From an uncultured Verrucomicrobiota bacterium (GTDB lineage Bacteria > Verrucomicrobiota > Verrucomicrobiia > Opitutales > Opitutaceae), in the NCBI GenBank assembly GCA_903906135.1, contig CAIVJE010000008.1, positions 1-38,973 of the forward strand: a DNA stretch of 38,973 nucleotides. The letters run 5' to 3'. Of this stretch, positions 7,005-33,690 are shown piece by piece. Below the pieces are notes generated by a model. It was not told the origin of the DNA, ran no database searches, and saw nothing but the letters and a program-made list of their open reading frames with translations. Positions within the stretch are counted from its first letter, which is position 1. The number at the start of each line of letters is the position of its first letter. The position numbers and the translations under genes were made by a program.

Positions 7005-7034
7005 GCAGAGACTCAGGATGAAGCAATCGCGCGC

Positions 7035-8795: not shown

Positions 8796-8881
8796 CTGCA
8801 GAGATAATTCATGGAGAAAATCTGGATCAAATTTATTCACCTGTTGAGTGAAAGCCTGGGGATTTGTCTTTGCTTGATTAT

Positions 8882-8908
8882 CCGTATTCATCCGTGAAAT
8901 CCGTGGTT
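8882..8908 (-). repeat. Right arm of imperfect inverted repeat
   Basis: Partner of 8769-8795 in opposite orientation. On the plus strand it reads as the repeated words CCGT, ATCCGTG and ATCCGTGG, a style of short-word intergenic repeat rather than coding DNA. Confidence 0.6.
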
Positions 8909-8954
8909 AGAATTGGCTGAGCTTGGCTGATTGAGTGGAGTTGAAGGAATCATT

Positions 8955-8984
8955 TTTCGCGTCAGCTCGCGTATTTCGCGGGCA
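8955..8984 (-). repeat. Dispersed repeat, copy 1 (CGCGAAA words)
   Basis: The reverse complement of these 30 bases matches 33768-33797 at 27 of 30 positions. The unit contains three spaced CGCGA words. The two copies lie nearly 25 kb apart in opposite orientation, both in gene-free DNA next to the 3' end of a gene. Confidence 0.7.
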
Positions 8985-8988
8985 ATCT

Positions 8989-9498: not shown

Positions 9499-9670
9499 GT
9501 TAGAGTGAGTCAAGTTATCGACGGAGCGTGAGGAAAAATTGGGGCGCTGATTACAGGCCAAGCGGCGGGCTTTGGGTCTGAACGATGCTGCGCGGGCGGC
9601 GAGTACTGGGCCGGGTGATTTTGCTGAGCAGCGGCGGACGGTTGAGGGTTGAAGCGGGCGGGTTGGGCAG

Positions 9671-9702
9671 AAAAAGGGCGGCGCCTAGAGAGGCGCCGCC
9701 CT
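9671..9702 (-). terminator. Intrinsic terminator after the TonB-dependent receptor gene
   Basis: On the minus strand a perfect 12-bp stem AGGGCGGCGCCT / AGGCGCCGCCCT (9675-9686 with 9691-9702) with a 4-nt loop is followed at once by five T residues (9671-9675). It begins 32 nt after the receptor stop codon. This is the clearest terminator in the window and should end the receptor transcript. Confidence 0.88.
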
Positions 9703-9733
9703 GAATAGTGACGGTAAACGTTAGTTTAACCGA

Positions 9734-12853: not shown

Positions 12854-12928
12854 GCTTATTGGTGGTTTGTAGTTTCCGAAAATGAACGCCGCGGAGCGGG
12901 CTCATCGGGTCGGGAAAGTGATAAAATA

Positions 12929-13972: not shown

Positions 13973-14005
13973 GGGGTGGGCAATGGGGTGGGGTATCGCC
14001 CATAC

Positions 14006-14016
14006 TGAAACTTTCA
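14006..14016. promoter_or_regulatory. Candidate LacI operator (TGAAA-C-TTTCA)
   Basis: An 11-bp odd palindrome TGAAACTTTCA lies between the putative -10 element (14023-14028) and the regulator start codon (13972), a position suited to autorepression. LacI-family operators are often palindromes of this size. Binding is inferred only. Confidence 0.4.
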
Positions 14017-14022
14017 CGTAAA

Positions 14023-15362: not shown

Positions 15363-17804
15363 ATGTTACCCTTACCCTTTGTTCAGCGCGCGTCGTGGAT
15401 TTGGTCAGCCGAAGGTACCCACGCGGTGCCAACTTCGGGGCAAGCCTCGCCCTCTCATTATCAGGTGCGTTATTTTCGGCGCACGTTTGAGCTCGCTGAT
15501 CCTAGGGCGGTGGCGCTTACCGTTCATTTGTCCGCTGATAGTCGTTACGTCTTTTACTGTAATGGGATTTGTGTGGGTCGCGGGCCGGCGAAGGGAGACA
15601 TCAACCATCATTTCTATGATACTTTTGATCTGACGCCCCACTTGCGGAGCGGTCGCAATGCGCTCGCGGTGATTGTGCAGGATATGTCGCGCGTGGCGCA
15701 CCGGCCGGCGCTGTTGGGCGCACCTTGCTCGGTGATGACTTATGCGGGTGGCTTCGTCTTAGAGGGGTCGGTGGTCGATACCGCGGGGGCGGAGCTCGTC
15801 GATTTGCAGACGGATGCGCAGTGGCGAGTCGCGGTGGATCATGGTCATCGTTTTCAAAATGATCACACGACGTTTGAAGGCTATTTAGGTTATTTCGAGC
15901 ACCGGATCTCCGCGTTGGTTCCGGCCGGTTGGACGACGCCCGAATTTGATGACCAAGCGTGGTTGGCCGCGGAAGTGCTTTTTAAAGCGGAGCGTTTAGA
16001 AAATCGCCGCGACCCCGCTAGTCCTTACGGGTTGTTGCCGCGGATGATTCCGATGTTGACCGAAGGAGAGCTCACGCCGTTTCCCGATGCTTATATGGTC
16101 GGTGGTGGCGCAGTGTCGCCGGCTTGGCAGAAATTGCTGACGGCCGGCGTGCCGCTCACGTTAGCCGCGGGCGAAAAAATTGATCTCGTGCTGGATATGG
16201 GCGTGCTGACGACAGCGTTTCCCCATCTCGCGGTCAGTGGCGGCGCGGGCAGTCGGGTGCGGTTAAATTACGCGGAGGCCTTGCGTTTGCCCTGGGGCAC
16301 CGCGGGGGCGAAATTGCTCGGTAAGCAGCAGTCACTCGCGAATCTCGCTTCGCATTTTGCTGATGAAAGCACCGGCTGGACCTTTGATCGCCGCGGCAAA
16401 GTAACGGGTTGGGGCGACACGTGGGAGCCGGCGGGCCGCGCCGATATTTTCGAGCCACTGCATTGGCGGGCTTTCCGTTACGTGGGCTTGCAAATTACCG
16501 TGGGGGCGACGCCGCTCACGTTGCATGCAGTGCAGCAGCGCTACACCGCGTATCCGTATCACGTGGCGGCGAAATTTAGTTCGTCCGATGCCGCGCTCGA
16601 TAAAATCTGGCAGGTGGGCTTGCACACGATGCAGATGTGTTCGCATGAAACATTTGAGGACTGTCCGCATTATGAGCAGATGCAGTATGCGGGCGACACG
16701 ATGATCACCTCGCAGCTCGCGATGTTGACGACGGGTGACTCGCGGTTGAGTCGGCAGGCACTTTATCAATTTGATTGGTCGCGACTGTCCGATGGACTGA
16801 CGCAGGCGCGTTTCCCTTCGCGGCTCTTGCAGGTTATTCCGGCGTGGAGCGTGCATTGGATCACCAACATTCGGGATTATTTTTTATGCACGGGCGATCG
16901 GGCCACGGTGCAGGATTTGTTGCCCGGGGTGCGCGCGGTGCTCGATTGGTATCGGCGCCACACGGATGCCGCGGGTTTGCCGGCAAAAATGCCTTACTGG
17001 AATATCACCGACTGGTGTCCGTGGTGGCCGCGCGGGGTGGTGCCGGGCGCGGATACGGGCGCAACTTGTATTCATGCGGCGCAATACATCAACGCGCTCG
17101 ATGAGGCGGCGTGGCTGTTGCGTTATTTCGATCGCGGGGTCGAGGCGACGGCGCTCACGACGGAGGCCGCGGGGCTGCGCCAGAAAGCGCATGCGCTTTT
17201 TTGGTCCGAGAGCGAAGGGTTGTATTTTGATCGTCCGGGTGGTCCGGAAATTAGTCAGTACGGCAATGCGTGGGCGATCCTCGCGGGCTTGGCGGGCGAG
17301 CGGGAGCGGTCGATTATGCTGCGGCGTTTTCCGCACGATCCGAAACTCGCGCCGGGCTCTTTCTTCTGGTGGCACATTGGCTTCAAGGCGCTGGCGATCT
17401 GCGGTCGCTCCGATGATATGCCGCAATACTTGGGCCCTTGGCATGAGTCCGTCAGTTACGGCTTATCTACTTTCGTCGAGGAGAACAGTTACTGGCGCTC
17501 GTTGTGCCACGCGTGGTCTGCGCATCCCGTGCTAGAATTTCAGCAGCGCATTTTGGGCGTCATGCCCGTCGAGCCAGGGTTCGCGCGCATTCGCCTGCAA
17601 CCGCATCGCTGTGGACTCACGCACGCGCAAGGCAGTGTCTGCACACCGTTCGGTTTAATCACCGTGGCGTGGCGGGTGGTCGGAGCGACTTTCACGCTCG
17701 AGGTCGCGGGGCCCAAAAATATTCCTGGGCAAGTAATCTTGCCTGATGGCAGCACGCATGAATTTGCGGGCGGTCAGGCCAGCTACACAGTGGCGCTCTC
17801 ATGA
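15363..17804 (+). CDS. Alpha-L-rhamnosidase-like glycosidase (GH78 type)
   Basis: 813 residues without a signal peptide, so probably cytoplasmic. Order: N-terminal beta-sandwich regions (about 1-390) with the carbohydrate-binding-like pattern FRRTFEL..., SADSRYVFYCNG and GDINHHFYDTFDLTPHL; a six-hairpin catalytic domain (about 400-725); a C-terminal beta domain. Family motifs are DCPHYEQMQYAGD (433-445), where E438 is the candidate acid, and STFVEENSYWRSLCHAWSAHP (E706/E707 as candidate base), followed by the usual GVMPVEPGFARIRLQP. GH78 enzymes release terminal alpha-L-rhamnose. The acid motif deviates from the common DCPqRdE form, so the substrate may differ. It heads a plus-strand operon; the next gene starts in an ATGA overlap. 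Confidence 0.87.
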   Translation: MLPLPFVQRASWIWSAEGTHAVPTSGQASPSHYQVRYFRRTFELADPRAVALTVHLSADSRYVFYCNGICVGRGPAKGDINHHFYDTFDLTPHLRSGRNALAVIVQDMSRVAHRPALLGAPCSVMTYAGGFVLEGSVVDTAGAELVDLQTDAQWRVAVDHGHRFQNDHTTFEGYLGYFEHRISALVPAGWTTPEFDDQAWLAAEVLFKAERLENRRDPASPYGLLPRMIPMLTEGELTPFPDAYMVGGGAVSPAWQKLLTAGVPLTLAAGEKIDLVLDMGVLTTAFPHLAVSGGAGSRVRLNYAEALRLPWGTAGAKLLGKQQSLANLASHFADESTGWTFDRRGKVTGWGDTWEPAGRADIFEPLHWRAFRYVGLQITVGATPLTLHAVQQRYTAYPYHVAAKFSSSDAALDKIWQVGLHTMQMCSHETFEDCPHYEQMQYAGDTMITSQLAMLTTGDSRLSRQALYQFDWSRLSDGLTQARFPSRLLQVIPAWSVHWITNIRDYFLCTGDRATVQDLLPGVRAVLDWYRRHTDAAGLPAKMPYWNITDWCPWWPRGVVPGADTGATCIHAAQYINALDEAAWLLRYFDRGVEATALTTEAAGLRQKAHALFWSESEGLYFDRPGGPEISQYGNAWAILAGLAGERERSIMLRRFPHDPKLAPGSFFWWHIGFKALAICGRSDDMPQYLGPWHESVSYGLSTFVEENSYWRSLCHAWSAHPVLEFQQRILGVMPVEPGFARIRLQPHRCGLTHAQGSVCTPFGLITVAWRVVGATFTLEVAGPKNIPGQVILPDGSTHEFAGGQASYTVALS

Positions 17805-18658
17805 GTACCGCGCTGCAACTCGTTCGCGACGGCGACCGCGCGGTGGAAATCCATCGGGTTGGCGGCGGGCGTTTGCTGCGTTATGTCTTTCGGCCCGAGA
17901 CATCTTTAGATGAGGCGGCGCGGCCCTACGCGCATCCGGTCTGTACGCTGGCAGGGGAGGAATTAACGAATTTCCGGCCCAACGATCATCGCTGGCAACA
18001 TGGGCTGAGTTTCACCATCAACTGTTTGGCGGGCTATAATTTTTGGGGTGGCGGCACTTATCGCCGAGCGGATGGTTATCAATGGCGTGATGATCATGGT
18101 ACGCAGCAGCACACGGCGTGGGTGGAGCAGAGCAGTAATCATTTAGCGCATCTTTTGGACTGGCGGGTTGGCACGGCGGGCGAGCTGCTTTTGCAGGAGA
18201 GACGTGCGTTAACTTTCACGATTCTTTCGGCGCAGGCCTGGTCATTGCGTTGGGTGGCGACGTTGCAAAATGTGGCGGGGCGCCCGCTGGCGTTGGGCCA
18301 GTATCATTCGCACGAAGGGCTCACCGGCTCGCATTATAGTGGTCTACAATTTCGGGGGGCGCGCGATTTGCTCGACGAACACGGCGATGCCTCCATCGGA
18401 ATTTTCGCGGAGGGTGATCGCGCGGGTGAGGCCGCGGTGCATGGGGCCGCTAGTTCGTGGATGGAATGGCGCGGGCAGAAAGATGTTTCGCAGCGGCGCG
18501 TCAATCTTCGCTTCACCAATAATACTGGGCCGCTGCACTGGTTTGTGCGGCGGGGCAATCCCCTCGCGGCGCTGCCGTTTCAATATGAAAGCGATCTGCA
18601 ACTCGCGCCGGGCGCTGCTTTCACCATCGACCACACGTTAACGTTTACCGACCTATGA
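17801..18658 (+). CDS. DUF6807 / PmoA-like family protein
   Basis: 285 residues without signal peptide. The conserved core VCTLAGEELTNFRPNDHRWQHGL (about 46-68) followed by NFWGGGTY and later GQYHSHEGLTGSHYSG matches the PmoA/DUF6807 family, common in Verrucomicrobiota and Planctomycetota glycan loci. Despite the PmoA name there is no sign of a methane-oxidation role; the fold is mutarotase-like beta-sandwich as far as I know. The His-rich motif could bind metal or act on a sugar. Start and stop overlap the neighbours by 4 nt (ATGA) on both sides, so translation of the three genes 15363-19944 is probably coupled and their products work on the same path. Biochemical function unknown. Confidence 0.8.
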   Translation: MSTALQLVRDGDRAVEIHRVGGGRLLRYVFRPETSLDEAARPYAHPVCTLAGEELTNFRPNDHRWQHGLSFTINCLAGYNFWGGGTYRRADGYQWRDDHGTQQHTAWVEQSSNHLAHLLDWRVGTAGELLLQERRALTFTILSAQAWSLRWVATLQNVAGRPLALGQYHSHEGLTGSHYSGLQFRGARDLLDEHGDASIGIFAEGDRAGEAAVHGAASSWMEWRGQKDVSQRRVNLRFTNNTGPLHWFVRRGNPLAALPFQYESDLQLAPGAAFTIDHTLTFTDL

Positions 18659-19944
18659 AAACCAATCGACGGACATTTATCCAAGGGCTGGGCACGGGTG
18701 TAGTGGGCGCGTGGGCCAGCGGGAGTGCGGTCGCGGCGGCGCCGGCCCCGGCGGTGGCGGCGAGTTGGCCGATTTTTGATGCCGCGCACCCCGCCGCTTT
18801 CTGGCGGGCGGTGCGAGCGAGCTATCCTCTCCTCGAAGATCCGCTCTATTTAAATACGGGCGGGATTGGCCCCGTCGCCCAACCGGTGCTCGATCAGATG
18901 ATCGCGACCATGTATAAATTGCAGCAGCATTCCGAGACGGGGCATGATTTGTTTGAGCCGGCGCGTGTCACGGTGGCAAAATTCGTCGGCGCACAGTCGC
19001 GAGAAATTTGTTTCGTGCGCAATGCCACCGAGGGCAACTGCATCATCGCGGCGGGCTTGGCCCTCACCGCGGGCGACGAGGTTATTTTTGAATCCCACGC
19101 GCATCCGGGCGGATCTTTCCCTTGGTATAATCAAGCGAAGTTGCGGGGGATTACGGTGCGCTTGTTTGAGCCTGATCCGACGAGTCCTGAGGCTAACCTA
19201 GCGCGGATTCGTGCGCTGATTACTCCGCGGACTAAAGTGATTCAGGTGAGTCACATTACGTGCACCACGGGTCTGGTGATGCCGGTGGCGGCGATCGCCC
19301 GCCTCGCTCAGTCGCAGGGGATTTGGTTTCATGTCGATGGCGCGCAGGCGGTCGGCATGATCCCGGTGACTCTGAACGCACTCGGTTGTGATTCGTATGC
19401 ATTTAGCGGTCACAAGTGGCTGGGCGGACCGCACGAAACGGGGGTGTTTTATATTCGCCGCGATCGCTTGGCCGATGTGGCCCCGACTTCCATGGGGGCA
19501 CATGGCGCGGAGTTACCGTTCTTGCCCGGTGAACTGAAGTATTTTGACGGCACGATGCGCCACGAATACGGCACGCGTAACGCGGGGCTGATTACGGGCC
19601 TGGCCGAAGCGGTGCGCGGTCAAACTTTAATGGGGCCTGAGCGCATTGCCGCTCATGGCCGTGAGCTCGCTACTTTATTACAGACAGAGTTGGCGCGGAT
19701 TGAGGGGATCACGGTGCTCACGCCGCGCGCGGATGATATGCGCGCTGCCATGACTACGATTCGCCACGCACGAGTAGGGGCACATAAATTATTTACCTAT
19801 CTCCTCGACGAACATCGGCTGCGTTGTCGTCCGGTTACGGAGCAAGGGCTCGAGGTGGTGCGTATCTCGACGCACCTATTCAATTCCCCCGCCGATTGCG
19901 AACGCGTGATCAACGGGGTACGCGCGGCGGCGCGGGCGCTCTGA
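18655..19944 (+). CDS. Tat-exported class V aminotransferase-fold PLP enzyme
   Basis: 429 residues. NRRTFIQGLG (4-13) begins a twin-arginine signal with an Ala-rich cleavage region near 28-36, fitting export of a protein folded with its cofactor. The rest is aminotransferase class V: YLNTGGIGP (65-73), NATEGN (123-128), HVDGAQ (226-231, D228 to the pyridine nitrogen) and SGHKWLGGP (251-259, K254 as Schiff-base lysine). Closest recognised types are isopenicillin-N-epimerase-like and cysteine-desulfurase-like enzymes, so racemisation, beta-elimination or transamination are possible. All key residues are present. It is the last gene of an ATGA-coupled trio, and a convergent exported RidA gene begins to end 39 nt downstream. 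The substrate is unknown. Confidence 0.9.
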   Translation: MKTNRRTFIQGLGTGVVGAWASGSAVAAAPAPAVAASWPIFDAAHPAAFWRAVRASYPLLEDPLYLNTGGIGPVAQPVLDQMIATMYKLQQHSETGHDLFEPARVTVAKFVGAQSREICFVRNATEGNCIIAAGLALTAGDEVIFESHAHPGGSFPWYNQAKLRGITVRLFEPDPTSPEANLARIRALITPRTKVIQVSHITCTTGLVMPVAAIARLAQSQGIWFHVDGAQAVGMIPVTLNALGCDSYAFSGHKWLGGPHETGVFYIRRDRLADVAPTSMGAHGAELPFLPGELKYFDGTMRHEYGTRNAGLITGLAEAVRGQTLMGPERIAAHGRELATLLQTELARIEGITVLTPRADDMRAAMTTIRHARVGAHKLFTYLLDEHRLRCRPVTEQGLEVVRISTHLFNSPADCERVINGVRAAARAL

Positions 19945-19983: not shown

Positions 19984-20517
19984 TTAGTCCGCCACTTCCG
20001 CGATCAGGTCAATCTCGACGGGGGCGCCCGCGGGCAGGGCATTAACGCCGACGGCGGCGCGGGCGTGACGACCCGCCGGGCCGAAGACGGCGACCAGCAA
20101 GTCAGAAGCGCCATTAACGACCTTGGGCTGCGCGGTGAAATCATCGGTGCAATTAACGAAGCCGCCCACGCGCACGATGCGCTGGACGCGCGCCAAGTCA
20201 CCGAGTTCCGCTTGGAGCACCGCCAGCAATTGCAGCACGCACGTCCGCGCGGCTTCCGCCGCTTGGGCTTCCGTCAGCTCGCGCCCGACTTTACCGGTGA
20301 GCGGTTGGCCGTTGGACCCCCGCGCGATTTGTCCGGCCAAAAAAATCAATTTACCGCTCCGCACGGCGGGCACGTAGTTAGCGATGGACGGCGGGACGGC
20401 GGGCAGGGTCAGGCCCAGTGCGGCGAGTCGTTGCGTGGGCGTCGACGTTGTCGCGCCGCGGGACGTGACGGTCAGACAAAGGATTGCCAGCAGTCCAATC
20501 ATCAGAGTAGTTTTCAT
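19984..20517 (-). CDS. Exported RidA (YjgF/UK114)-family enamine/imine deaminase
   Basis: 177 residues from the ATG at 20517; the frame reaches 20556, but this start gives a good Sec signal (MKTTLMIGLLAILCLTVTSRG). The mature part is a full RidA domain: SGKLIFLAGQIARG, a mid-domain VQRIVRVGGFVNCTDDF, and the C-terminal GRHARAAVGVNALPAGAPVEIDLIAEV. The Arg of ARAAVG and the Glu of VEID are the residues that bind and hydrolyse the imine in characterised members. RidA proteins remove reactive 2-aminoacrylate-type enamines made by PLP enzymes. Most are cytosolic, so the signal peptide is notable, and the neighbouring PLP enzyme is also exported. It lies alone on the minus strand inside the plus-strand block. 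Confidence 0.9.
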   Translation of the reverse strand: MKTTLMIGLLAILCLTVTSRGATTSTPTQRLAALGLTLPAVPPSIANYVPAVRSGKLIFLAGQIARGSNGQPLTGKVGRELTEAQAAEAARTCVLQLLAVLQAELGDLARVQRIVRVGGFVNCTDDFTAQPKVVNGASDLLVAVFGPAGRHARAAVGVNALPAGAPVEIDLIAEVAD

Positions 20518-20528
20518 AAAGTTTTTAT

Positions 20529-20564
20529 TTCTGTCGTCGTGAGCCGCGCACCGCAACGACAGAA
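20529..20564. promoter_or_regulatory. Perfect 9-bp inverted repeat between divergent RidA and propeller genes
   Basis: TTCTGTCGT (20529-20537) and ACGACAGAA (20556-20564) are separated by 18 nt. They sit 12 nt upstream of the RidA start codon and 77 nt upstream of the propeller gene, in the shared regulatory gap. A dimeric regulator site or an RNA hairpin in the RidA leader would both fit. Confidence 0.45.
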
Positions 20565-20641: not shown

Positions 20642-21694
20642 ATGAGTAAAATCAAAATAGCCAGTGCGTTATTTATTAGTTTGGTCGCAGCGCTGGGCGC
20701 CGCGGCCGGACCCTCGCACGATTTGGTGTTGTGCGTTACATTTCGAGTCCCTGGGGGACTCACGGCCACGGCGTTGCCGGTACCGTTGCCGCCCTGCGGA
20801 TTGCACCAGCGCGGGACGGATAATCGCTTCACGCATTTCGGGCCGAACTATCCCCGTTTCAATAATTTGGCCCGAGATCCGCGAGATCCGCGGGTGTTAT
20901 ACGCGGCGTCGCTCAATGGAGTTTTGTGTTCCACTGATGGCGGTGAGGTTTGGCGGATTGGGACGAGTTGGGATATGACGGAGCCGCGGGATGTTTGCAT
21001 CGACCCGCACGCGCCGGATCACATTTACCTCGCCTTGCCTGATGGCATAGCCGTCTCAAAAGATCGGGGGCTGACGTGGCCCCGCCGCGAAACAGGGCTG
21101 CCGGACCGCGGTAAATACATGCAAGTGGTGAAAGTGGATCGCACGCAAGCGGGCCGGGTGTTGGCCGGTTGTGAGTCGGGGATTTATTTAACGGAGACTG
21201 CCGCGCAATCGTGGCGGCGGGTTTTTACCACGCAGACCACGATTACTGATCTGCAGCAATCGCCGCATGATGCGCAACTCTGGCTGGCGACAACGCAAAG
21301 TGATGGCGCGCTGCGCTCGCGTGATGGCGGCCGTACGTGGGAGAAAATTGCCGGCGTGCCGGCCGCGGCCGCTCTTTACAATATCGCCTTTGATGCGACG
21401 ACCGCGCGGCGCTATGCGGTCGCTAGTTGGACGTATGGAATTTTGACCACAGAAGATGGCGGTGAGACGTGGAGTGAGCGCAATGTGGGGCTGCCGGTGC
21501 CGCATCGGGTTTTCCGTTTGGGGATCGATCCTGATAACGGCCGGCTGTACGCCGGAGTTTATGAAGAAGCGGTTTACGAGTCGCTTGATTTTGGTCGCAC
21601 GTGGCGGTCGGCCGGATTCGAGCATTCCGTCGTTTACAATTTCGTTTTTTTACCCCGTTTCGCTAACTCACCGGCGCTCGCCCACTTACCATGA
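20642..21694 (+). CDS. Exported Asp-box (BNR) beta-propeller protein, copy 1
   Basis: 350 residues with a Sec signal (about 1-22). At least five Asp-box motifs are visible: STDGGEVW (97-104), SKDRGLTW (139-146), SRDGGRTW (226-233), TEDGGETW (270-277) and SLDFGRTW (314-321), spaced about 44 or twice that, which fits a sialidase/sortilin-type propeller. Such propellers serve as glycosidases, lyases or protein/sugar-binding scaffolds; I see no sialidase Arg triad or FRIP motif, so catalysis is not supported. It overlaps the next gene by ATGA and has a paralogue at 23588-24610 next to a paralogue of that gene, so the two products probably form a pair, in the periplasm or at the cell surface. Confidence 0.85.
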   Translation: MSKIKIASALFISLVAALGAAAGPSHDLVLCVTFRVPGGLTATALPVPLPPCGLHQRGTDNRFTHFGPNYPRFNNLARDPRDPRVLYAASLNGVLCSTDGGEVWRIGTSWDMTEPRDVCIDPHAPDHIYLALPDGIAVSKDRGLTWPRRETGLPDRGKYMQVVKVDRTQAGRVLAGCESGIYLTETAAQSWRRVFTTQTTITDLQQSPHDAQLWLATTQSDGALRSRDGGRTWEKIAGVPAAAALYNIAFDATTARRYAVASWTYGILTTEDGGETWSERNVGLPVPHRVFRLGIDPDNGRLYAGVYEEAVYESLDFGRTWRSAGFEHSVVYNFVFLPRFANSPALAHLP

Positions 21695-23574
21695 TCGCTC
21701 GCCTGTTTTTAATTTTCAGTTGGGCGCTTGGTGGCGCCGTGATTTTGTTGGCGCAACCGGCTTTCGTTGGTCCTGCCCCGTCTCGGGCAATCCTGCCGAC
21801 CCCCGAGCTGCAGCGCGCCGCCTATTTAGCGCGGATCGATGAAATTTTGGCGTGGCGGTCGAGTCAGGCGAAGCCCGGCGAGCTTTTCCCCGAGATGACG
21901 ATGATCGCCACCAAGCTCGCGCTGCATCAGGATGCCGAGCTTTGTTCCCGCAGTGTGATTGCGTTGATGAAGACGCCGGCCAGTGGCCCGTTTTGGATGT
22001 TTCCGACGGTCAATGTTGCTTTTCTTGGCCGCGACCAGCTTTCCCTCGAGGCGCGCCAGTCGATTCGCAAGGCGTGGAGTCGGGAGATGCAGATCCGCGG
22101 GGATACCGAAAATCACTGGGTTATGTATTATACTTCGCTCTACCTGATGGCGGAGTTGTACCCGCATGAACCAGGGAGCAGTTGGTATTCGGGAAAAAGT
22201 TCGGAAGAAAATTTAGCCGAGGCCAAAGCATATCTGATCGATTGGATGAACCTCGCCACGACGGTCGGGCAGGGGGAGTTCAATCCGACGCACTACATCG
22301 GTGAATACGCGATCCCGATGCTTTATCTGGCCACGTGGGCGCAAGATCCCGCCATGCGGTTGCGCGGGAAAATGACGCTCGATTGGTTGTTTGCTGATCT
22401 GGCGGAAAATACGCTCAATGGCGTGCTGCATGGGGCTAATGCGCGGACAGATGACATTTCCGTAATTGAGCGGGGTAAAGCGCTGGCGTCATTTTTCAGT
22501 TGGGTGCTTTTCGGCAATGTCCCGCCGATCGCTGCCTACGGGGGCTGGGGCATCTATTTTGCGACGGTGGCCCAAAATTACGAATTGCCTGAAGTGATCT
22601 ACCGGATCGCGGTGGATCGGCCGAGCGATTACCTCCAGCGCGATCTTAAACGCACGCGGCGCCGCTGGCGGAATAGCGACGTGCTCATGGCCCCGATCTA
22701 CAAGACCAATTATACCCGCCGTGATTACGCCGTGGGTTCTTATCAAGGTGGGCTGGCGGATCCGATCCAGACGCATGTCTGGGATGTCACGTGGGACGTG
22801 CCCGATCCACGTGGGGTGCACAATACGATGTTCTCGATGCATCCCGTATCCTCGAGTTATGACCTGCAGACTTATTTTGCTGAGTTGCCTGATCAAATGG
22901 CGAAAGAGGTCACCAAGGAGGGTAAGGCCTCTTATGATTCCCCGGATAAATTTCTGGGAGGTTCCCGGTTTGAGCAAGTGTTTCAAGATTTGGATACCGT
23001 GATTGCGTTGTACGATATCCCGGTTGGCACGCGTTTCCCGCACATCAATGGATTTCTCTCCAAAGATTTATTGCAACTCACGGTCGATCCTTCCGGTTGG
23101 ATTTTTGCGCAAGGCGGTTCGTGCTATCTCGCTTATCGGCCGCTGGCTGCGTACCAGCTGCGGCCGGTCGCGCGGGTTAAATCTTCAATGACAGGGGAGC
23201 GCGCCAGTCTCGGTGACCAGCAGCTGTTTAGTCCTTATCTAAAAAACGGCACGATTGTGCAGGCTGCCGCGGTGAGTGAGTTTAAGGATTTTGCGGCCTT
23301 TCAAGCGGCGATTCGAGCGCTGCCCTTGAGTTTTCAGCTGGCGACGAAACCGACGGTGACCTTTCAAACGCTCCGCGGTAAAGTCGTTACCTGCACGTTT
23401 GGCGCGGCGCCGATTGTTAATGGGCAGCCGTTTGATTACACGCCGTGGAAGCTTTTCGAAGGGCCTTACCTCAATGCGGAGAAGGGTGCGGGGCGCCTGA
23501 CGATTACGCACGGCGCCCTGGAACGTATTCTAGATTTTAAAACACTCAGTATCACTGATCGCGTGAAACTCTAA
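21691..23574 (+). CDS. Large exported protein of unknown family, copy 1 (toroid-lyase-like layout)
   Basis: 627 residues; residues 1-22 form a Sec signal. I do not recognise the family. The first 320 or so residues are helix-rich with motifs SGPFWMFPTVNVAFLGRD (98-115), GDTENHWVMYYTSLYLMAE (137-155), SSEENLAEAKAYL (170-182) and GQGEFNPTHYIGEY (193-206). The rest is beta-rich with WDVTW, HNTMFSMHP, FEQVFQDLDTVIALYDIPVG and SGWIFAQGG. A helical toroid followed by beta-sheets, with an Asn-His pair (N141-H142) and Tyr residues, resembles the layout of several polysaccharide lyase families, but this is inference from pattern. It starts in an ATGA overlap with the propeller gene. Paralogue at 24627-26519. 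Confidence 0.8.
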   Translation: MIARLFLIFSWALGGAVILLAQPAFVGPAPSRAILPTPELQRAAYLARIDEILAWRSSQAKPGELFPEMTMIATKLALHQDAELCSRSVIALMKTPASGPFWMFPTVNVAFLGRDQLSLEARQSIRKAWSREMQIRGDTENHWVMYYTSLYLMAELYPHEPGSSWYSGKSSEENLAEAKAYLIDWMNLATTVGQGEFNPTHYIGEYAIPMLYLATWAQDPAMRLRGKMTLDWLFADLAENTLNGVLHGANARTDDISVIERGKALASFFSWVLFGNVPPIAAYGGWGIYFATVAQNYELPEVIYRIAVDRPSDYLQRDLKRTRRRWRNSDVLMAPIYKTNYTRRDYAVGSYQGGLADPIQTHVWDVTWDVPDPRGVHNTMFSMHPVSSSYDLQTYFAELPDQMAKEVTKEGKASYDSPDKFLGGSRFEQVFQDLDTVIALYDIPVGTRFPHINGFLSKDLLQLTVDPSGWIFAQGGSCYLAYRPLAAYQLRPVARVKSSMTGERASLGDQQLFSPYLKNGTIVQAAAVSEFKDFAAFQAAIRALPLSFQLATKPTVTFQTLRGKVVTCTFGAAPIVNGQPFDYTPWKLFEGPYLNAEKGAGRLTITHGALERILDFKTLSITDRVKL

Positions 23575-23587
23575 ACTTATTTATTTT

Positions 23588-24610
23588 ATGGTCATCAAAA
23601 ATATTACGGGCCCGCTGGTGGGTCTCCTGCTCTGCTCTCTCGGGGTTGCCGCGCCGACTCCGATACCCGCGTATGATTTTTATGTCTGCGCGAACATTAA
23701 CCGAAATTATGTCATCGGTTCAAAAATTGTGACGATGAACGGAGTTTATCGGCGGGACGCCGCCGGCGCGTGGCAACACTTCGGTTACAATGATTCCGGC
23801 ATCACCGCGGTGGCCTTTGACCCGCGTGATCACCGTGTCTGGTATACTTCGGCGCTCAATGGTCTCTGGCGCACGCTTGATGGCGGTAAATCGTGGCGCA
23901 TGTGCAATGGTTGGGAGATGACGGAAGCGCGGGATGTCGCGGTTGATCCGAATGCTCCTGATCATGTTTATTTGGCCTTGCCGGACGGGGTGGCGGTCTC
24001 GACCGATCGGGCGCAGACCTTGGAGCGGCGCGAAAACGGTTTGCCTGAGCGCGGCAAATACACGCAAGTGATTAAGGTAGATCGCACACAAGCGGGTCGC
24101 GTGTTCGCCGGCTGCGAACTGGGTATTTATCTGACCGACGATGGGGCCGCACACTGGCGACAGGTCTTGCCGACCAAAGAAATGGTGACGGATATTCAGC
24201 AATCGCCGCATGATCCTCAGGTGTGGTTGGCCGTCACGCAGAATGCGGGAGCGTGGCGATCGACCGATGGTGGGGTGACGTGGATCAATTTTCCGAACGT
24301 GCCGACGAGCCGCGCGCTTTATAATGTGACCTTTGACGTGACCCAGGCATCGCGCTACGCCATCGGCAGTTGGGCTCACGGCGTGCTGACGACGGAAGAT
24401 GGGGGCGTCACGTGGCAGGACCGCAATGCCGGGCTGCCAGCGCCGCATCGGGTGTGGCGGGTGGGGGTTGATCCGGCGGGGTGGCTTTATGCGAGCGTGT
24501 TTGGCGAAACCCTTTACGTCTCAAAAGATTTTGGCCGCACCTGGCGAGCGGATGCGCTGGTCGGTTCCGTCGTGAATAATTTCCTCATCCTGCCTCGGAG
24601 TGTTAACTAA
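23588..24610 (+). CDS. Exported Asp-box (BNR) beta-propeller protein, copy 2
   Basis: 340 residues with a Sec signal (about 1-22, ending VAAP). It aligns with the first propeller throughout, sharing for example GKYTQVIKVDRTQAGRVFAG and DIQQSPHDPQVWLAVTQ. Asp boxes: TLDGGKSW (96-103), a degraded STDRAQTL, STDGGVTW, TEDGGVTW and SKDFGRTW. The N-terminal 60 residues differ from copy 1 and may give each copy its own partner or ligand. It begins 13 nt after the first module; the leader TTATTTATTTT has no Shine-Dalgarno sequence, which suggests coupling to upstream translation. It pairs with the downstream copy of the unknown protein, 16 nt away. Confidence 0.85.
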   Translation: MVIKNITGPLVGLLLCSLGVAAPTPIPAYDFYVCANINRNYVIGSKIVTMNGVYRRDAAGAWQHFGYNDSGITAVAFDPRDHRVWYTSALNGLWRTLDGGKSWRMCNGWEMTEARDVAVDPNAPDHVYLALPDGVAVSTDRAQTLERRENGLPERGKYTQVIKVDRTQAGRVFAGCELGIYLTDDGAAHWRQVLPTKEMVTDIQQSPHDPQVWLAVTQNAGAWRSTDGGVTWINFPNVPTSRALYNVTFDVTQASRYAIGSWAHGVLTTEDGGVTWQDRNAGLPAPHRVWRVGVDPAGWLYASVFGETLYVSKDFGRTWRADALVGSVVNNFLILPRSVN

Positions 24611-24626
24611 GTACCCTTTTCTCGAC

Positions 24627-26519
24627 ATGAAACGAATTTTTTCCCTGATTTTTTTGTTAACGTTTACGGTGATCAGCGCGTCAGCCCGGTCTGCTCTGTC
24701 TGGCCCGCCACCCTCCACCGCGCCGGTGTTGAATGAGCAACAACGTCACGCTGACTATATTCGTCGCATCGATGAGGTGATCAATTTCGCGGCGGGCGGC
24801 GCTAAATTTAAGACGGATGATCCCGCTAAATTTGATTTGGTCACCATTGCGTCAAAATTGGTGCGCGGGCAAGATTACGAGCGTTGCTCTCGGCGGGTCA
24901 TCGAGCTGATGCGCGAGCCTGGGACAGGGCCTTTTTGGATGTTTCCCACCGTATGTGCGGCCTATGTGGGCCGCGATCGGCTGACACCCGCTGCGCAGGC
25001 GGCAATTCGCGAGGCTTGGCGGACAACTCGGCAGGTGCGCGGTGACACCGAGAATCATTGGATGATGTACTACGCCTCGCTCTACCTGATGTCGGAGCTG
25101 TATCCCAACGATCCCGCGGAATCATGGTACACGGGAAAGTCGTCGTCGGAAAATCTAGCCGAGGCGCGCGCTTATCTCATCCACTGGGCGGATCTCTCGA
25201 CGAGTATGGGGCAGGGGGAATTTAATCCGACCGAGTATATTGGTGAATATGCAATCCCGTTACTTTTTCTGGCCAGTTGGGCGAAGGACCCAGTGATTAA
25301 AGAGCGTGGTCGCCTGATGCTCGATTGGCTTTTTGCAGAATTGGCTGCAAATACGCTTAACGGTGTGCTCCGCGGACCTAATTCGCGCACCACCGAAGGG
25401 CCGGTCGCCGAGCGGTGGAACGCGATGGCTTCAGACTTTAGTTGGATGTTATTTGGCAATACACCGCCGACCGCTGGGTATGGTGGCTGGGCCCTTTATT
25501 TTGCGCCGGTGGCAAAGAATTATAATGTGCCTGAGGTTATCTACCGTATCGCGACCGATCGGTCAGCGGACTACCTGCAGCGGGATCGGGCGCGCACGCG
25601 CCGGCGTTGGCGCTACAGCGACGAACTTTCTCCGCTGGTCTATAAAACGAATTATTTGCGGACCGATTACGCCGTGGGCTCCACGCGCGGTGGGATGATT
25701 GACCCGATTCAGTCGCACGTGTGGGACGTTACGTGGGCTGAAGCGGATCCGCGTAAAAAACATAACACGATGTTCTCGATGCATCCGCATTCTTCCATGG
25801 TGGCGATGCAATCGTCGTTCACCTGTTATCCTGAACCGATGATTAAGGCGGTTACGATGGAAGGTAAACCCACGTATGATTCGCCGGATAAGATTCTCGG
25901 CAGTTCGCCTTACGAGCAAGTGTTTCAAGATCTCGATACGGTCATCGCACTTTATGATATTCCGGTCGGGGAGCGTTTTCCGCACATCAACGGATTTTTC
26001 TCCAAAGATCTGGTTAAGGTGACGGAGAGTCCTTCGGGCTGGATCTTTGCTCAGGGTGGGCGGGCTTATCTCGCCTACCGCCCCCTAGCGGGCTACACGT
26101 GGACTAAGTACAGCCACTTTGCGGGTGGCTGGGCCAAGGTCGGGCTCGATCTCGGCGGACGTATTCTCACTAGTCCGCACTTAAAAAATGGCACAATCGT
26201 ACAAGTCGCGAGTGCCAACGAATTCCCCAGCTTCGCGGCTTTTCAGGCGGCGATTAATGCGCTCCCGCTGCAATTTTCCCTCGAGCCGGTGCCGACCGTG
26301 AATTTCACCACCCTGCGGGGTAAAAAGGTGACCTGCACTTATGGCCAAACGCCCACGGTAGACGGCAGCCCGCTGGATTATTCTAAGTGGAAATTATTTG
26401 AGGGCCCGTACCTTAATTCTGAAGTGGGCAGCCGTCGCCTCACCATTACTCACGGTCAATTGGAGCGCGTACTTGATTTAAATGCGCTGACCGCCACTGA
26501 CCGCGTGCGGACCCCATGA
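24627..26519 (+). CDS. Large exported protein of unknown family, copy 2
   Basis: 630 residues from the ATG at 24627; the frame is open to a GTG at 24600, but the ATG gives the signal MKRIFSLIFLLTFTVISASA. It is a full-length paralogue of 21691-23574 with the same marks: GTGPFWMFPTVCAAYVGRD, GDTENHWMMYYASLYLMSE, GQGEFNPTEYIGEY, HNTMFSMHPHSS, YEQVFQDLDTVIALYDIPVG and SGWIFAQGG. Positions kept between the two diverged copies (the Asn-His pair, GQGEFNPT, the Arg-rich RTRRRWR before the DVTW strand) are the best guide to active-site residues. Predicted exported glycan-active enzyme, unproven. The stop overlaps the next start by ATGA. Confidence 0.8.
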   Translation: MKRIFSLIFLLTFTVISASARSALSGPPPSTAPVLNEQQRHADYIRRIDEVINFAAGGAKFKTDDPAKFDLVTIASKLVRGQDYERCSRRVIELMREPGTGPFWMFPTVCAAYVGRDRLTPAAQAAIREAWRTTRQVRGDTENHWMMYYASLYLMSELYPNDPAESWYTGKSSSENLAEARAYLIHWADLSTSMGQGEFNPTEYIGEYAIPLLFLASWAKDPVIKERGRLMLDWLFAELAANTLNGVLRGPNSRTTEGPVAERWNAMASDFSWMLFGNTPPTAGYGGWALYFAPVAKNYNVPEVIYRIATDRSADYLQRDRARTRRRWRYSDELSPLVYKTNYLRTDYAVGSTRGGMIDPIQSHVWDVTWAEADPRKKHNTMFSMHPHSSMVAMQSSFTCYPEPMIKAVTMEGKPTYDSPDKILGSSPYEQVFQDLDTVIALYDIPVGERFPHINGFFSKDLVKVTESPSGWIFAQGGRAYLAYRPLAGYTWTKYSHFAGGWAKVGLDLGGRILTSPHLKNGTIVQVASANEFPSFAAFQAAINALPLQFSLEPVPTVNFTTLRGKKVTCTYGQTPTVDGSPLDYSKWKLFEGPYLNSEVGSRRLTITHGQLERVLDLNALTATDRVRTP

Positions 26520-27910
26520 GTGATCGTGCGCGCCTCCGTGGTAGGTTAACGCTCTCGCTCGGCGCGCTGCTGTTTAGTTTGCCGCTGAGTCAGCTGTTCG
26601 CGGAGGCGGCGCCGTGGACTGATTCAGCCCGAGTTGGTCACGCGATGCTGACGCGGCTCTGCGATGATTTCGGCGGTCGGCTCACGGGCAGCGTCGCCAA
26701 TGAAGGAGCGCTTACGCAACTAGCCGCTGAGCTCCGGGCCTTGGGGCTGCAGCCGGAGCGAGTGCCGTTCTCGATGCCGGGGTGGGAGCGGGGCGCGGAT
26801 CACGTTGAGTTGTTGGCGCCCCTGAGCCGACCGTTACGCGTGGCGGCGCTCGGCTATACGTCAGCGCATGCTCCTTTTGAAGCTGAGGTGGTTGCTATCG
26901 GCGCGGGCGGGGTGGCTGATTATCCGACGGACGTGACAGGAAAAATTGCGCTCTTAGATCCCGCCTGCGCGCTCACCGCGCGGGAATTTTCGCAACTGGC
27001 CTTCCAACGGGGCGCGCGGGGTATCTTGTATATTAATCGTGAAGGGGGCGGCCAATTGTTGGCCCGGACGGGGAGTTTTATTGGCGAACCCTTAGCGCTG
27101 CCGGTTTATTCTTTGGCGCAGGAAGAGGGACGGTGGCTGCAGCGTTTACTGCAGCGGGGCCAGACGGTGCGCGTGCGGGTGGCGACAAAATCGCAGTGCC
27201 GCGCTGTGACCACCGCAAATTTAGTGGTGCGCTTGCCGGGTCGATCGCCAGCTCGCCTGATTGTGGGTGCGCATTTTGACAGCTGGGATCTCGGGCAGGG
27301 CGCGCTCGATAATGGGATTGGCATCGCCCAATTGTTTGCGCTGGCCCATGCCCTCCGCGGTCGTGAGCTCGCGCACTCGGTTGAGCTGATTTGGTTCAAT
27401 GGCGAGGAGGAAGGCCTGTGGGGTTCGCGTCAGGCGGCGGCGCAATTAGGCGCCGATCCCATCATCGCCATGATCAATCTCGACATGGTCGGGGTGCCCA
27501 TTGGGGTCAATGCGCTCGGTGATACCGCACTGGTGCCGGTGCTGCAGCAGTGGGCGCAAAAGCGGAGTCCCGCGGCGCTGCCGCGGGGCGTGGAGAACAT
27601 TAATTGGTTTGGTAGTGATCACACGCCTTACCAATTAGCTGGGGTGCGGGCGCTCACCTTTAACGGGCCGATTCCGCGCGAGTCGGTGCGTTTTTATCAT
27701 GATTTTGCGGACACAATTGATAAATTGCCGGAGCAAATTATTGTCGATTCGACGGCGGTGATTGGTGACCTCGTGTTGACCTTGGCCAATCACCCCGCCG
27801 TGAGCGCCACGCGGCGGACGCCCACTGCGACGGAGAAATTATTTACAGATTTTGGGCTGGAGCGTCGCATGCAGGCCGTCGGCTATTGGCCGTTCAAAGC
27901 TACTCCATGA
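26516..27910 (+). CDS. Exported M28-family zinc aminopeptidase with PA insert
   Basis: 464 residues. Signal-like N-terminus (Arg-rich, hydrophobic 11-28, cleavage near AEAAP). A PA-like domain (about 100-230, ALLDPACALT...RGILYINREGG) precedes the M28 catalytic core. Zinc and catalytic residues are all present in the family order: H253 and D255 (GAHFDSW), D265 (ALDNG), E297/E298 (NGEEEGLWGS), D323 (INLDMVG) and H395 (RFYHDFADT). It should release N-terminal amino acids or cleave amino-acyl groups outside the cytoplasm. Starting in an ATGA overlap with the unknown gene links it to the glycan block and is one of several hints that the substrate contains amino acids. Confidence 0.92.
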   Translation: MSDRARLRGRLTLSLGALLFSLPLSQLFAEAAPWTDSARVGHAMLTRLCDDFGGRLTGSVANEGALTQLAAELRALGLQPERVPFSMPGWERGADHVELLAPLSRPLRVAALGYTSAHAPFEAEVVAIGAGGVADYPTDVTGKIALLDPACALTAREFSQLAFQRGARGILYINREGGGQLLARTGSFIGEPLALPVYSLAQEEGRWLQRLLQRGQTVRVRVATKSQCRAVTTANLVVRLPGRSPARLIVGAHFDSWDLGQGALDNGIGIAQLFALAHALRGRELAHSVELIWFNGEEEGLWGSRQAAAQLGADPIIAMINLDMVGVPIGVNALGDTALVPVLQQWAQKRSPAALPRGVENINWFGSDHTPYQLAGVRALTFNGPIPRESVRFYHDFADTIDKLPEQIIVDSTAVIGDLVLTLANHPAVSATRRTPTATEKLFTDFGLERRMQAVGYWPFKATP

Positions 27911-28034: not shown

Positions 28035-30110
28035 ATGCATATTCTTGGCCTGCACCTCATCGACGCGCTCATTATCGTCGCCTATATTGTGATCGTTTTA
28101 GCGATCGGAAAAATTTTATCCCACGGGGTGAAAGGCGAAAAAGATTTTTTCCTGGGGGGGCGCTCGCTCGGTAAGTGGTTTCAGTTTTTCCTGAGCTTTG
28201 GCACGATGACGGATCCGGGGCAGGCGACGACGACGGCAAGCTCAGTCTATCGTCAAGGGGCGGGAGGGGCCTGGCTCGCGCTCATTACTTTATTTTTGAC
28301 TCCCTATTATTGGTTTACCGCCGTGTGGTTTCGGCGCGTGCGGCTGACGACGATGGCGGATTTATTTCAAGACCGCTTTGGCCGGCGTTTCCTCGCTACC
28401 TTGTATGCGGTGACCACGATCATGATGGTGATTGTCTCGATTGCTGCCGGCAACGTGATCGCCTTGAAAACCTTGCAGCCCTTGATGGTGAAAGAGCCGG
28501 CAATTTACTCGGTCGCAGAAAAGCAGATGGTGGCCGAGTATTATGAATTTACGGCTCTGCGCAAAGCGCGAGCCACGACGCCGTTGGCGGGACTGGCGGC
28601 ATCGCGCTATGAAGGACTAAAAGATTCCTATGATCGCGGCGCGTTGCAACCGCACGTAACTTATCTGCAGCCGGCGACTTTTTATTGGGTCACCTCTATT
28701 TTAGTGGCGATTTTTGTGATGCTCGGGGGGCTAAAGGCCTCCGCCGTGGTGGATGGGGTGCAGGCGGTCCTCGTGATTATTATCTCCGTGATCTTAATTC
28801 CCTTTGGTCTCGCCAAAATTGGCGGGGTCTCAGGGCTGCACGCCAAAGTGCCGGCAGTGATGTTCAATTTATTTGGGGGAGGTGGGTCGAGTGAATACAC
28901 GTGGTATTCGATCTTGGCATTATTGCTGGTGCAATTTCTCGGGATTGTAGGATCGCAGGCCAATATGACGATCGGGGGCTCGGCCAAGAGCGAGATAGCT
29001 GGGCGCATCGGGGCCGTGTCCGGCGGATTCAGCAAACGCTTTGTCACCATCGCGTGGGCCTTTAGCGGTTTAATTGCGCTGGCTATTTTCGGGCCTAATT
29101 TAGCAGATCCCGATCAAGTGTGGGGTTTGCTGACGCGTTCGCTTCTGCCGGTCGGGTTGATTGGCGTTATGATCATCGGTATTCTCGGTGGTAAGCTGGC
29201 GCTGCTCGGAGCCCAATCGGTCGTGCTCTCGGGGCTGGTGGTGAAAAATTTATATGAACCGCTTTTCCCGGGCAAAACAGAGGGTCACTATATGGTGGTG
29301 GCGCGTTTGACGGTCCCGGTGGCGCTCGCGTGCGGGATCGGCGTGGCCCTCTACCTGCATAGTGTCATCGCCTTGTTGAAATTCGCAATTGTGCTGCTGG
29401 TGATTTGGGGCGTGCCCATCACGCTGATTTTCCTGTGGCGCCGTTTGACGGAAATGGCCGTCCGCGTGCAAGTTCTCGCCACGGTTACGTTGGTCGCAGT
29501 GATTCCGTGGAGTGTGCCGGCGATTCCGGCGCTGGCGCGTTCGGCTACTTTGACGCAAATGACGCGCGAGCAGGTGATCATGGTGAGCGTGCCCGGGAAT
29601 TCGGCGCTAACGCAGCCGCATCGCATCGAGCCGGTGTCGATTTATTTTGAAGAAGGGGTCGTGCGGAGTAATCCGCAGGACTTGCAGTCGCCCAAGACGG
29701 GCAAGGGACTGTTTCGCATTGAGGTTTATTTACTCGCCGTTCTCGGGGTGGATGTGGCGGGTTTTAATCCGGCGCAGTTGTTAATGACCCGTTATTTAGT
29801 CGATGCGTTGTTGCCCCTTTTAATTCTCATCGTGGTTAGTCTGCTGACTACCCCAACTGATCCGGTGCGGGTAGCGCGTTTTCATGCGCGGATGAAGACT
29901 CCGGTGGGAGCCACGCTGGAGGAAGATGCCGTTGCCGTCGAAGCGAGTTACGCCAGCCCGACACGTTATGATCACCTGAAACTATTTCCCCGCTCTCAAT
30001 GGGAGCTAACCAAGTGGAACCGCCAAGATGGGTGGGGCTTCCTCGGTTGTTGTGCGCTCGTGGGCTTTATTCTCGTATTCTTTAAGGCTGTGTTACTGCT
30101 CGGCAGTTAA
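28035..30110 (+). CDS. Sodium:solute symporter (SSS family) with two large loops
   Basis: 691 residues, about 100 longer than the other symporter in the window. N-terminal SSS pattern: TM1 (10-29), KDFFLGGRSLGKWFQFFLSFGT (36-57, the conserved ..F.lggRslg region). About 13 TM segments follow. Two extra soluble stretches are visible: about 150-213 (Lys/Glu/Tyr-rich, between TM helices) and about 500-585 (between late TMs, with the sequence VSIYFEEGVVRSNPQDL). The C-terminal tail (610-670) is hydrophilic before a last TM. Only SSS transport by Na+ is established for the family; its position at the end of the plus-strand block suggests import of the final product. Start ATG at 28035 is preceded by a pyrimidine-rich leader. 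Confidence 0.9.
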   Translation: MHILGLHLIDALIIVAYIVIVLAIGKILSHGVKGEKDFFLGGRSLGKWFQFFLSFGTMTDPGQATTTASSVYRQGAGGAWLALITLFLTPYYWFTAVWFRRVRLTTMADLFQDRFGRRFLATLYAVTTIMMVIVSIAAGNVIALKTLQPLMVKEPAIYSVAEKQMVAEYYEFTALRKARATTPLAGLAASRYEGLKDSYDRGALQPHVTYLQPATFYWVTSILVAIFVMLGGLKASAVVDGVQAVLVIIISVILIPFGLAKIGGVSGLHAKVPAVMFNLFGGGGSSEYTWYSILALLLVQFLGIVGSQANMTIGGSAKSEIAGRIGAVSGGFSKRFVTIAWAFSGLIALAIFGPNLADPDQVWGLLTRSLLPVGLIGVMIIGILGGKLALLGAQSVVLSGLVVKNLYEPLFPGKTEGHYMVVARLTVPVALACGIGVALYLHSVIALLKFAIVLLVIWGVPITLIFLWRRLTEMAVRVQVLATVTLVAVIPWSVPAIPALARSATLTQMTREQVIMVSVPGNSALTQPHRIEPVSIYFEEGVVRSNPQDLQSPKTGKGLFRIEVYLLAVLGVDVAGFNPAQLLMTRYLVDALLPLLILIVVSLLTTPTDPVRVARFHARMKTPVGATLEEDAVAVEASYASPTRYDHLKLFPRSQWELTKWNRQDGWGFLGCCALVGFILVFFKAVLLLGS

Positions 30111-32901: not shown

Positions 32902-33690
32902 ATGCGTACTTTTTGGCTATTTTTAGCAATCCTGTTCACCGTTTCTTCCGCGCGCGGCGCGGCTCAATCGGCGCGGAGTCCCTCGGTGGTGGTGGTGGGC
33001 GGGGCCATGAGTGACGGCCAGCACTTTATTAGCAGCACCCGGGCGGCCATGCAGCGACATTATGCGGGCTGCCAAAAAATCGTCCTCGTGCTGCATGCTG
33101 ATTTACCCCGCGATCGGGATCGACGGGAGATCCAGCTCAAGGCGGCCTTTGGCGAGCTCGGTTTTGCGCACGTGGAATCCCTGCATCATGCGGATCTAGC
33201 GGGGCAGCGGATGTTATTGGAGCAAGCCGATGGAATTTTTGTGAGCGGCGGCGAAACTTTTGTGCTGTTGGCGGAACTGTACCGGACGGGGCAGTTAGAC
33301 CTGATTAGGTCGCGAGTGGCCGCGGGGGTGCCGTATGGTGGTTCGAGCGCGGGGGCCAATGTGGCGGGGTTGTTGATTGGCACCACCAACGATTTTCCGG
33401 TAGCGGAAATTCCTAGCCGGCGCGCGCTGGCAATTTTCCCGGCCGTCATCAATCCGCACCATCCGGCACCTTCTGCTCAAGGTGATTTTAATTATCGGGC
33501 GGAAAAAATTAATGATTATCTCGGCTTTAACCCCACTGAGATTGTGTTGGCCCTGGGTAATGGCGCGCTGGCGCGCCTCCATGATGGGCGGGTGACCTTG
33601 GAGGCGGGGCTAGGCTGGGTTTATCAAGCGAAGGGCCGCCGATCACTGGTGCCCGGTGATTTGATTCCCGAGCTGCTGCTAAGAAAATAA
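32902..33690 (+). CDS. Exported peptidase E-like (S51) serine peptidase
   Basis: 262 residues with a Sec signal (MRTFWLFLAILFTVSSARG). The catalytic pattern of the S51 family is complete: GIFVSGGETF (111-120), the nucleophile elbow GGSSAGAN (146-153, S149), TTNDFPV (161-167, D164) and INPHHP (183-188, H186). This matches dipeptidase E, which cleaves Asp-X dipeptides, more closely than cyanophycinase. E. coli PepE is cytosolic and about 30 residues shorter, so export is unusual. One of the few genes here with a Shine-Dalgarno-like GAGGG, 8 nt before the ATG. Together with the M28 peptidase it points to peptide-bond cleavage outside the cytoplasm. Confidence 0.88.
   Translation: MRTFWLFLAILFTVSSARGAAQSARSPSVVVVGGAMSDGQHFISSTRAAMQRHYAGCQKIVLVLHADLPRDRDRREIQLKAAFGELGFAHVESLHHADLAGQRMLLEQADGIFVSGGETFVLLAELYRTGQLDLIRSRVAAGVPYGGSSAGANVAGLLIGTTNDFPVAEIPSRRALAIFPAVINPHHPAPSAQGDFNYRAEKINDYLGFNPTEIVLALGNGALARLHDGRVTLEAGLGWVYQAKGRRSLVPGDLIPELLLRK

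Follow-up and report, generated by a model that had tools for sequence, protein, structure and literature searches.

A duplicated gene pair in an Opitutaceae genome, encoding a beta-propeller and a predicted polysaccharide-lyase-like protein, behaves as a unit

Some polysaccharide lyases (PL) with a toroid fold share a recognizable set of residues: in families PL12, PL15, PL17, PL35, PL39 and PL40 an Asn/His, a Tyr and a His are comparably spaced. The residues tabulated in PMC12088678 are Asn192/Tyr246/His401 for a PL35 enzyme, Asn240/Tyr294/His424 for PL12, Asn201/Tyr258/His413 for PL17 and Asn186/Tyr239/His405 for PL39, and the same table gives Asn-Tyr spacings of 53-57 and Tyr-His spacings of 130-166 residues for PL12, PL15, PL17, PL35 and PL39; for PL40, PMC12915356 gives Asn245/Tyr305/His485 (spacings 60 and 180). 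Asp-box beta-propellers include the xyloglucanases of glycoside hydrolase family 74 (GH74), with two propellers and a catalytic Asp, as well as Ycf48/HCF136, sortilin and DAIP. Here we describe two adjacent gene pairs, each encoding an Asp-box propeller and a large protein with a lyase-like fold (predicted for the second pair), in a DNA stretch of 38,973 nucleotides (the window) from an uncultured bacterium of the Opitutaceae (Verrucomicrobiota; contig CAIVJE010000008.1). No propeller and toroid-lyase pair was named in titles or abstract openings among the literature matches listed; most subscription journals lie outside that coverage, so the pair is not thereby shown to be undescribed.

The two pairs are tandem paralogs in the order prop1-big1-prop2-big2, with all four open reading frames (ORFs) on the plus strand (Table 1). 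Identity is 53% between the propellers (348 alignment columns, E 3e-126) and 62% between the large proteins (611 columns, E 0.0). A preliminary description of this DNA had reported two successive pairs of the same order with full-length similarity, which the alignments bear out over nearly the full length; the divergence that it called strong is moderate at these identities. The big1 ATG overlaps the prop1 stop by 4 bases, 13 bases separate big1 from prop2, and the start of the following M28 peptidase gene overlaps the big2 stop by 4 bases. As called, big2 begins at GTG 24600; an alternative ATG at 24627 (residue 10 of the called ORF) coincides with the beginning of a signal-peptide-like stretch, and Met occupies its column in 27 of 76 aligned relatives. 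Judged from the sequence, ATG 24627 is likely the true start, in which case prop2 and big2 would not overlap.

A scan of public genomes yielded 50 loci, 49 titled as Verrucomicrobia lineages (mostly Opitutaceae, Opitutales or Opitutae) and one as Rhodothermia. Adjacency was scored on large-protein rows of at least 200 bits from these and further fetched loci, leaving out the window's own loci (115 rows, 90 after removal of 25 partial or repeated ones). A propeller gene on the same strand adjoins 85 of these 90 full-length large proteins, upstream in 70 cases and downstream only in 15; the five exceptions are at contig edges (L019, L041), an extra tandem copy (L029) or distant relatives at ~300 bits (L083, L084). 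Conversely, a large protein adjoins 85 of 87 propellers, and the other two lie at locus edges. As these loci had been fetched by the large protein, both proteins were in addition searched separately in the same genomes. Among 200 genomes of the bacterial family (E≤1e-60), the large protein was found in 100 and the propeller in 97; 97 have both, three have the large protein alone (G447, G509 and G527, assemblies of 470-770 contigs) and none has the propeller alone. Across 387 genomes of the phylum, strong matches (large protein, E≤1e-200; propeller, E≤1e-100) are confined to the same 23 genomes, and in five further genomes the propeller matches are all weak (108-139 bits; four proteins of 715-743 amino acids and one fragment). 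Only the best candidates per genome were scored, so copy numbers are lower bounds.

Gene order and gene boundaries vary while the association is kept. In a FastTree tree of 84 pairs, a branch with support of 100 separates 66 propeller-first pairs (the window's clade) from 18 pairs that are either large-protein-first or fused (the sister clade); the sister clade retains adjacency in reverse order. Three one-contig genomes (G271, G018 and G091) encode the pair as a single ORF, the large protein followed by the propeller (Table 1). A propeller match in a 1055-amino-acid frame (G475:C112) is a candidate further fusion. Pairwise distances among large proteins and among propellers are correlated (r 0.94, compared with 0.27 for the best of 500 permutations; r 0.81 within the propeller-first clade), and at 15 loci with at least two propeller-first pairs, partners are matched alike in both proteins in 95 of 98 quartets (35 near-ties dropped). 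This co-divergence shows a stable partnership, although linked genes that are simply copied together could also produce it. The proposal in the preliminary description that propeller and large protein function together is in line with these data: in pairing, co-occurrence, order reversal and natural fusion, the two genes behave as a unit.

Each of the four window proteins has a signal-peptide-like start when inspected by eye. A simple hydropathy screen (11-residue mean, with a threshold of 2.1 that we set) detected signal-peptide-like stretches in 60/66 large proteins and 58/66 propellers of the window's clade, and in 11/15 large proteins and 13/15 propellers of the sister clade, compared with 0.9% of 555 internal control stretches.

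The large protein most likely represents a new lyase-like family, with a modeled fold of an (alpha/alpha)-toroid and an antiparallel beta-sheet. The preliminary description had listed it as unknown; this still holds for family assignment, as neither big1 nor big2 matches a Pfam or NCBIfam family, while Foldseek narrows it to a polysaccharide-lyase-like fold. An AlphaFold model of big2 based on 76 aligned sequences (mean predicted local distance difference test score (pLDDT), 91.4; predicted template modeling score, 0.90) has helices at residues 46-319 and then mainly beta-strands at 325-636. All 30 matches of this model to the PDB at E≤1e-3 are toroid-fold polysaccharide lyases, with PL15 structure 3a0o at the top (E 4.8e-7) and chondroitinase/GAGase 9o3q and 8khv, PL17 7bm6 and heparan sulfate lyase 4mmi among the other leading matches; families PL8, PL12, PL15, PL17, PL33, PL35 and PL39 are represented. 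GH146 and GH127 structures are weak matches (E 0.054 and 0.14). None of 76 large proteins matches the heparinase II/III family PF07940 at E≤0.1. The predicted fold is like that of known toroid lyases, from which the large protein differs in that no sequence similarity to them was found and in its propeller partner.

Candidate catalytic residues were identified from conservation (big2 numbering). N152, H153, E207, Y213 and R263 are without variation in the alignment of 84 pairs, and residue 373 is His in all 66 propeller-first pairs of the window's clade. N152 and Y213 likewise do not vary in an alignment of 19 rows that takes in distant relatives (14 proteins from weaker matches, loci L083-L095). 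The N152-Y213 and Y213-H373 spacings are 61 and 160 residues; by this comparison of order and spacing, which involves no superposition of structures, the putative active site agrees with some PL families (PL12, PL15, PL17, PL35, PL39 and PL40).

An AlphaFold2 model of prop2 is confident (Table 1), with 3b7f, GH74 xyloglucanases and Ycf48 as nearest folds, and the best sequence matches to structures are GH74 as well. Pfam assigns prop1 and prop2 to Sortilin-Vps10/BNR; for Sortilin-Vps10 (PF15902) they score 50.2 and 48.4 bits, above the gathering score of 33, in a partial, repeat-level match whose best stretch covers ~110 of 446 profile positions. Together, the Pfam matches and the model confirm the earlier identification of these proteins as propellers. 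The nearest NCBIfam family is the F510_1955 glycosylhydrolase model NF045728, matched by 76/76 aligned propellers at E≤1e-5; prop1 and prop2 score 94.7 and 82.6 bits, under its curated cut-off of 175, and the propeller score for the NCBIfam Ycf48 model is far under the cut-off. The propellers share the Asp-box architecture of GH74 xyloglucanases but are 340-350 amino acids long with one propeller domain, whereas GH74 chains among the fold matches have ~700 residues or more and two propellers. Asp35 of 1sqj, which we take to be the catalytic Asp of the GH74 N-terminal propeller (numbered by our own count), falls opposite a gap in the profile alignment and has no counterpart. With both this residue and the second propeller missing, GH74 catalysis by the propeller is unlikely. 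Of the 33 positions kept in 80 or more of 84 propellers, 26 hold G, W, D or S, in line with expectation for Asp-box or turn positions. Ycf48/HCF136, sortilin and DAIP likewise share the Asp-box propeller and have other partners and settings; according to the structure titles, Ycf48 was solved with a D1 peptide and DAIP with a thermolysin fragment. For the propeller, a role in binding or as an accessory protein is a better fit than GH74 catalysis, although it may have some other activity.

We favor, with moderate confidence, the explanation that the pair is a two-protein carbohydrate-processing unit composed of a toroid lyase of a new family and a propeller partner. Since the pair stays together in related genomes and is sometimes fused, it probably forms one unit that cuts a sugar polymer. 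Starting from the predicted fold, we infer a scheme that comprises lyase chemistry, the role of the propeller, physical contact, an uptake route and a substrate. The large protein would be an enzyme that most members of the window's clade export and that degrades a uronic-acid-containing glycan through beta-elimination, in which N152 (with H153) would neutralize the carboxylate, H373 would abstract the C5 proton and Y213 would protonate the leaving sugar. Lacking the catalytic Asp and second propeller of GH74, the GH74-like propeller may bind the lyase and/or position the glycan at its cleft, and products would enter via a TonB receptor and symporters and then be trimmed by a rhamnosidase. A more specific version, which we put forward tentatively, is a new class of two-subunit lyases in which a GH74-type propeller that has lost its own catalysis is the obligate partner of the new toroid family and contributes to a composite cleft; such a unit would have been duplicated as a whole, would exist in either gene order and would be fused and apparently cytoplasmic in one lineage, with the catalytic His replaced by Gln and hence altered chemistry.

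Other explanations account for part of the data. The propeller could itself cleave the same glycan, as a glycosidase or a lyase, in which case a shared pathway rather than a complex would link the two genes. Some other PL families, e.g., PL24 and PL25, have a propeller as their lyase fold; GH74 enzymes are among the Foldseek neighbors of the propeller described here, and the family matched by all 76 aligned propellers is termed ‘glycosylhydrolase’. Set against this, the Asp35 position is gapped and the second propeller absent, the window propellers score under the NCBIfam cut-off, the conserved positions mostly hold residues expected of Asp-boxes or turns, and the fusions suggest more than a common pathway; we therefore regard two independent enzymes as unlikely. 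Slightly less likely again is that the large protein, while having the toroid fold, is not catalytic or acts as a hydrolase (e.g., a glycan-binding or arabinofuranosidase-like protein). The GH146 and GH127 matches and the absence of H373 from the sister clade would agree with such a role, although the match to PL15 is stronger than these by some five orders of magnitude, and the Asn/His and Tyr show no variation and are spaced as in lyases.

An explanation of lower probability still is shared regulation only, the pair having been inherited as a block in a conserved operon with no special relation between its members. Other genes of the locus are indeed nearly as constant (aminotransferase, 20/23 loci; S51 peptidase, 19/23; rhamnosidase, 18/23), but among the loci of at least 20 kb, the five that lack the rhamnosidase retain propeller and large protein (all fetched by the large protein), the divergent clade is partly in other surroundings, reversed or fused, and tandem copies keep their own partner.

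Several observations weigh against a two-protein lyase unit. Adjacency and co-divergence could also be explained by joint copying as one DNA segment and are not proof of contact. Three of the 15 downstream cases (L011, cut at a contig edge, and L016 and L032, extra tandem copies) merely touch the propeller of the next pair, so that 82 of the 90 large proteins have their own propeller; at L029:11920-13767, L016:4283-6202 and L032:11788-13827, additional large-protein genes lie in tandem and lack an upstream propeller of their own. The fused proteins have no signal peptide in the hydropathy screen (the lone stretch passing the threshold lies inside a conserved domain), which implies that some members do not work outside the cytoplasm. 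Residue 373 is Gln in 17 of 18 sister-clade pairs, including all three fusions, a change not shared with the toroid lyases, and H153 varies among the distant relatives in the 19-row alignment; both weaken the residue set as family-wide catalytic residues. In PL8, PL21 and PL23 the His or the neutralizer is located elsewhere according to the PMC12088678 table, so the agreement in spacing depends on the lyase families chosen. Whole-chain template modeling scores over the 30 Foldseek matches are low (0.24-0.46), indicating that kinship to the lyases is remote, of fold only, or that domains are placed differently. Sequence comparisons add no support: a Pfam scan of 76 large proteins gave just six single-member matches at chance level (E 0.03-0.1), a search of PDB sequences gave chance-level matches to unrelated proteins and no relative, PL members included, and hhalign found no match between the large protein and the window's own heparinase II/III proteins (profile of 3 rows).

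Distant relatives of the large protein are a further point on this side. Large-protein matches at E≤1e-5 occur in 53 of the 387 phylum genomes, 30 beyond the 23 with strong matches, and 13 fetched regions (L083-L095) contain no strong propeller within ~7-10 kb, with one 18-bit match in L087. Homologs that usually lie apart, the outcome named in the preliminary description as speaking against a unit, are therefore found for distant large-protein relatives (0/13 regions) and not within the close family. The propeller thus appears to have been acquired within a single branch of a wider family of enzymes. Of 10 distant relatives scanned against Pfam, nine had no match and one had a C-terminal DUF1961/DUF6250 alone. 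Many of the L083-L095 proteins carry ENH- and GxGExDSxxY-like motifs. In the record named Rhodothermia, the large protein (L048:640-2544) shares 44% identity with big2 and is preceded by a piece of a propeller, which could reflect transfer or a misbinned contig.

The preliminary description had also proposed that the second pair is adapted to a different ligand. At a 90% criterion, fixed differences between the pair-2 clade (42 rows) and the pair-1 clade (11 rows) are limited to large-protein residues 260, 437 and 438 and propeller residue 290, and the predicted catalytic residues are common to both clades. With only 3 + 1 sites, fixed differences were dropped as a sign of a new ligand; a change of ligand between the pairs is possible and finds no support here.

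The surroundings of the pairs look like a utilization locus for a rhamnose- and uronate-containing glycan (Table 1). As in polysaccharide utilization loci, a TonB receptor (plug domain present), a regulator, enzymes and transporters are grouped in the window, which differs in that no SusD-like protein was found among 20 window proteins scanned against Pfam. The tandem heparinase II/III proteins (2643-6899) are 57% identical, which adds another tandem-duplicated lyase-type gene to the window. Judged by eye, the aminotransferase-like protein has a twin-arginine-like start and the RidA-like protein a signal-peptide-like one; both are unusual companions in a polysaccharide locus. As a guess, the peptidases, aminotransferase and RidA hint at amino-acid decoration of the glycan. 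An 866-amino-acid protein (30184-32784, minus strand) matched neither a Pfam nor an NCBIfam family under the thresholds applied and has relatives in 2/23 loci.

Table 1. Features of the window and fused relatives. Neighbor counts are over 23 loci of at least 20 kb; unless a locus is named, positions are those of the window.
Feature	Position	Strand	Description
prop1	20642-21694	+	GH74/Ycf48-like Asp-box beta-propeller, partner of big1; signal-peptide-like N-terminus by eye; itself not the modeled propeller
big1	21691-23574	+	paralog of big2; polysaccharide-lyase-like by kinship to big2
prop2	23588-24610	+	beta-propeller, partner of big2; AlphaFold2 model, pLDDT 91.8
big2	24600-26519 (ORF as called)	+	predicted (alpha/alpha)-toroid + beta-sheet lyase-like protein
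big2 codons R147-H153 (RGDTENH)	25038-25058	+	seven residues invariant in 84/84 pairs
big2 codon N152	25053-25055	+	predicted carboxylate neutralizer; invariant 84/84
big2 codon H153	25056-25058	+	invariant 84/84
big2 codon Y213	25236-25238	+	predicted general acid; invariant 84/84
big2 codon H373	25716-25718	+	predicted general base; His in 66/66 of the window's clade
M28 peptidase	26516-27910	+	conserved neighbor; relatives in 18/23 loci
Na+/solute symporter (SSF)	28035-30110	+	Pfam
S51-family peptidase	32902-33690	+	relatives in 19/23 loci
RidA/YjgF-like protein	19984-20556	-	just upstream of prop1, opposite strand; relatives in 15/23 loci
Class V aminotransferase-like protein	18655-19944	+	conserved neighbor; relatives in 20/23 loci
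DUF6807 protein	17801-18658	+	relatives in 18/23 loci
Alpha-L-rhamnosidase-type protein	15363-17804	+	Pfam Bac_rhamnosid domains, GH78-like; relatives in 18/23 loci
Rest of presumed utilization locus	789-14017	-	second SSF symporter, two heparinase II/III, GxGYxYP, TonB-dependent receptor, LacI regulator
Fusion, genome G271	L133:8316-11270		985 amino acids
Fusion, genome G018	L134:7237-10416		1060-amino-acid frame
Fusion, genome G091	L135:7540-10440		967 amino acids

These results turn two unannotated genes into a testable enzyme family with named residues, present in 100 of 200 sampled genomes of the bacterial family. Should the propeller be an obligate subunit, the activity of such toroid proteins would escape assays in which they are used by themselves. 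The natural fusions offer a ready-made construct for determining the structure of the assembly.

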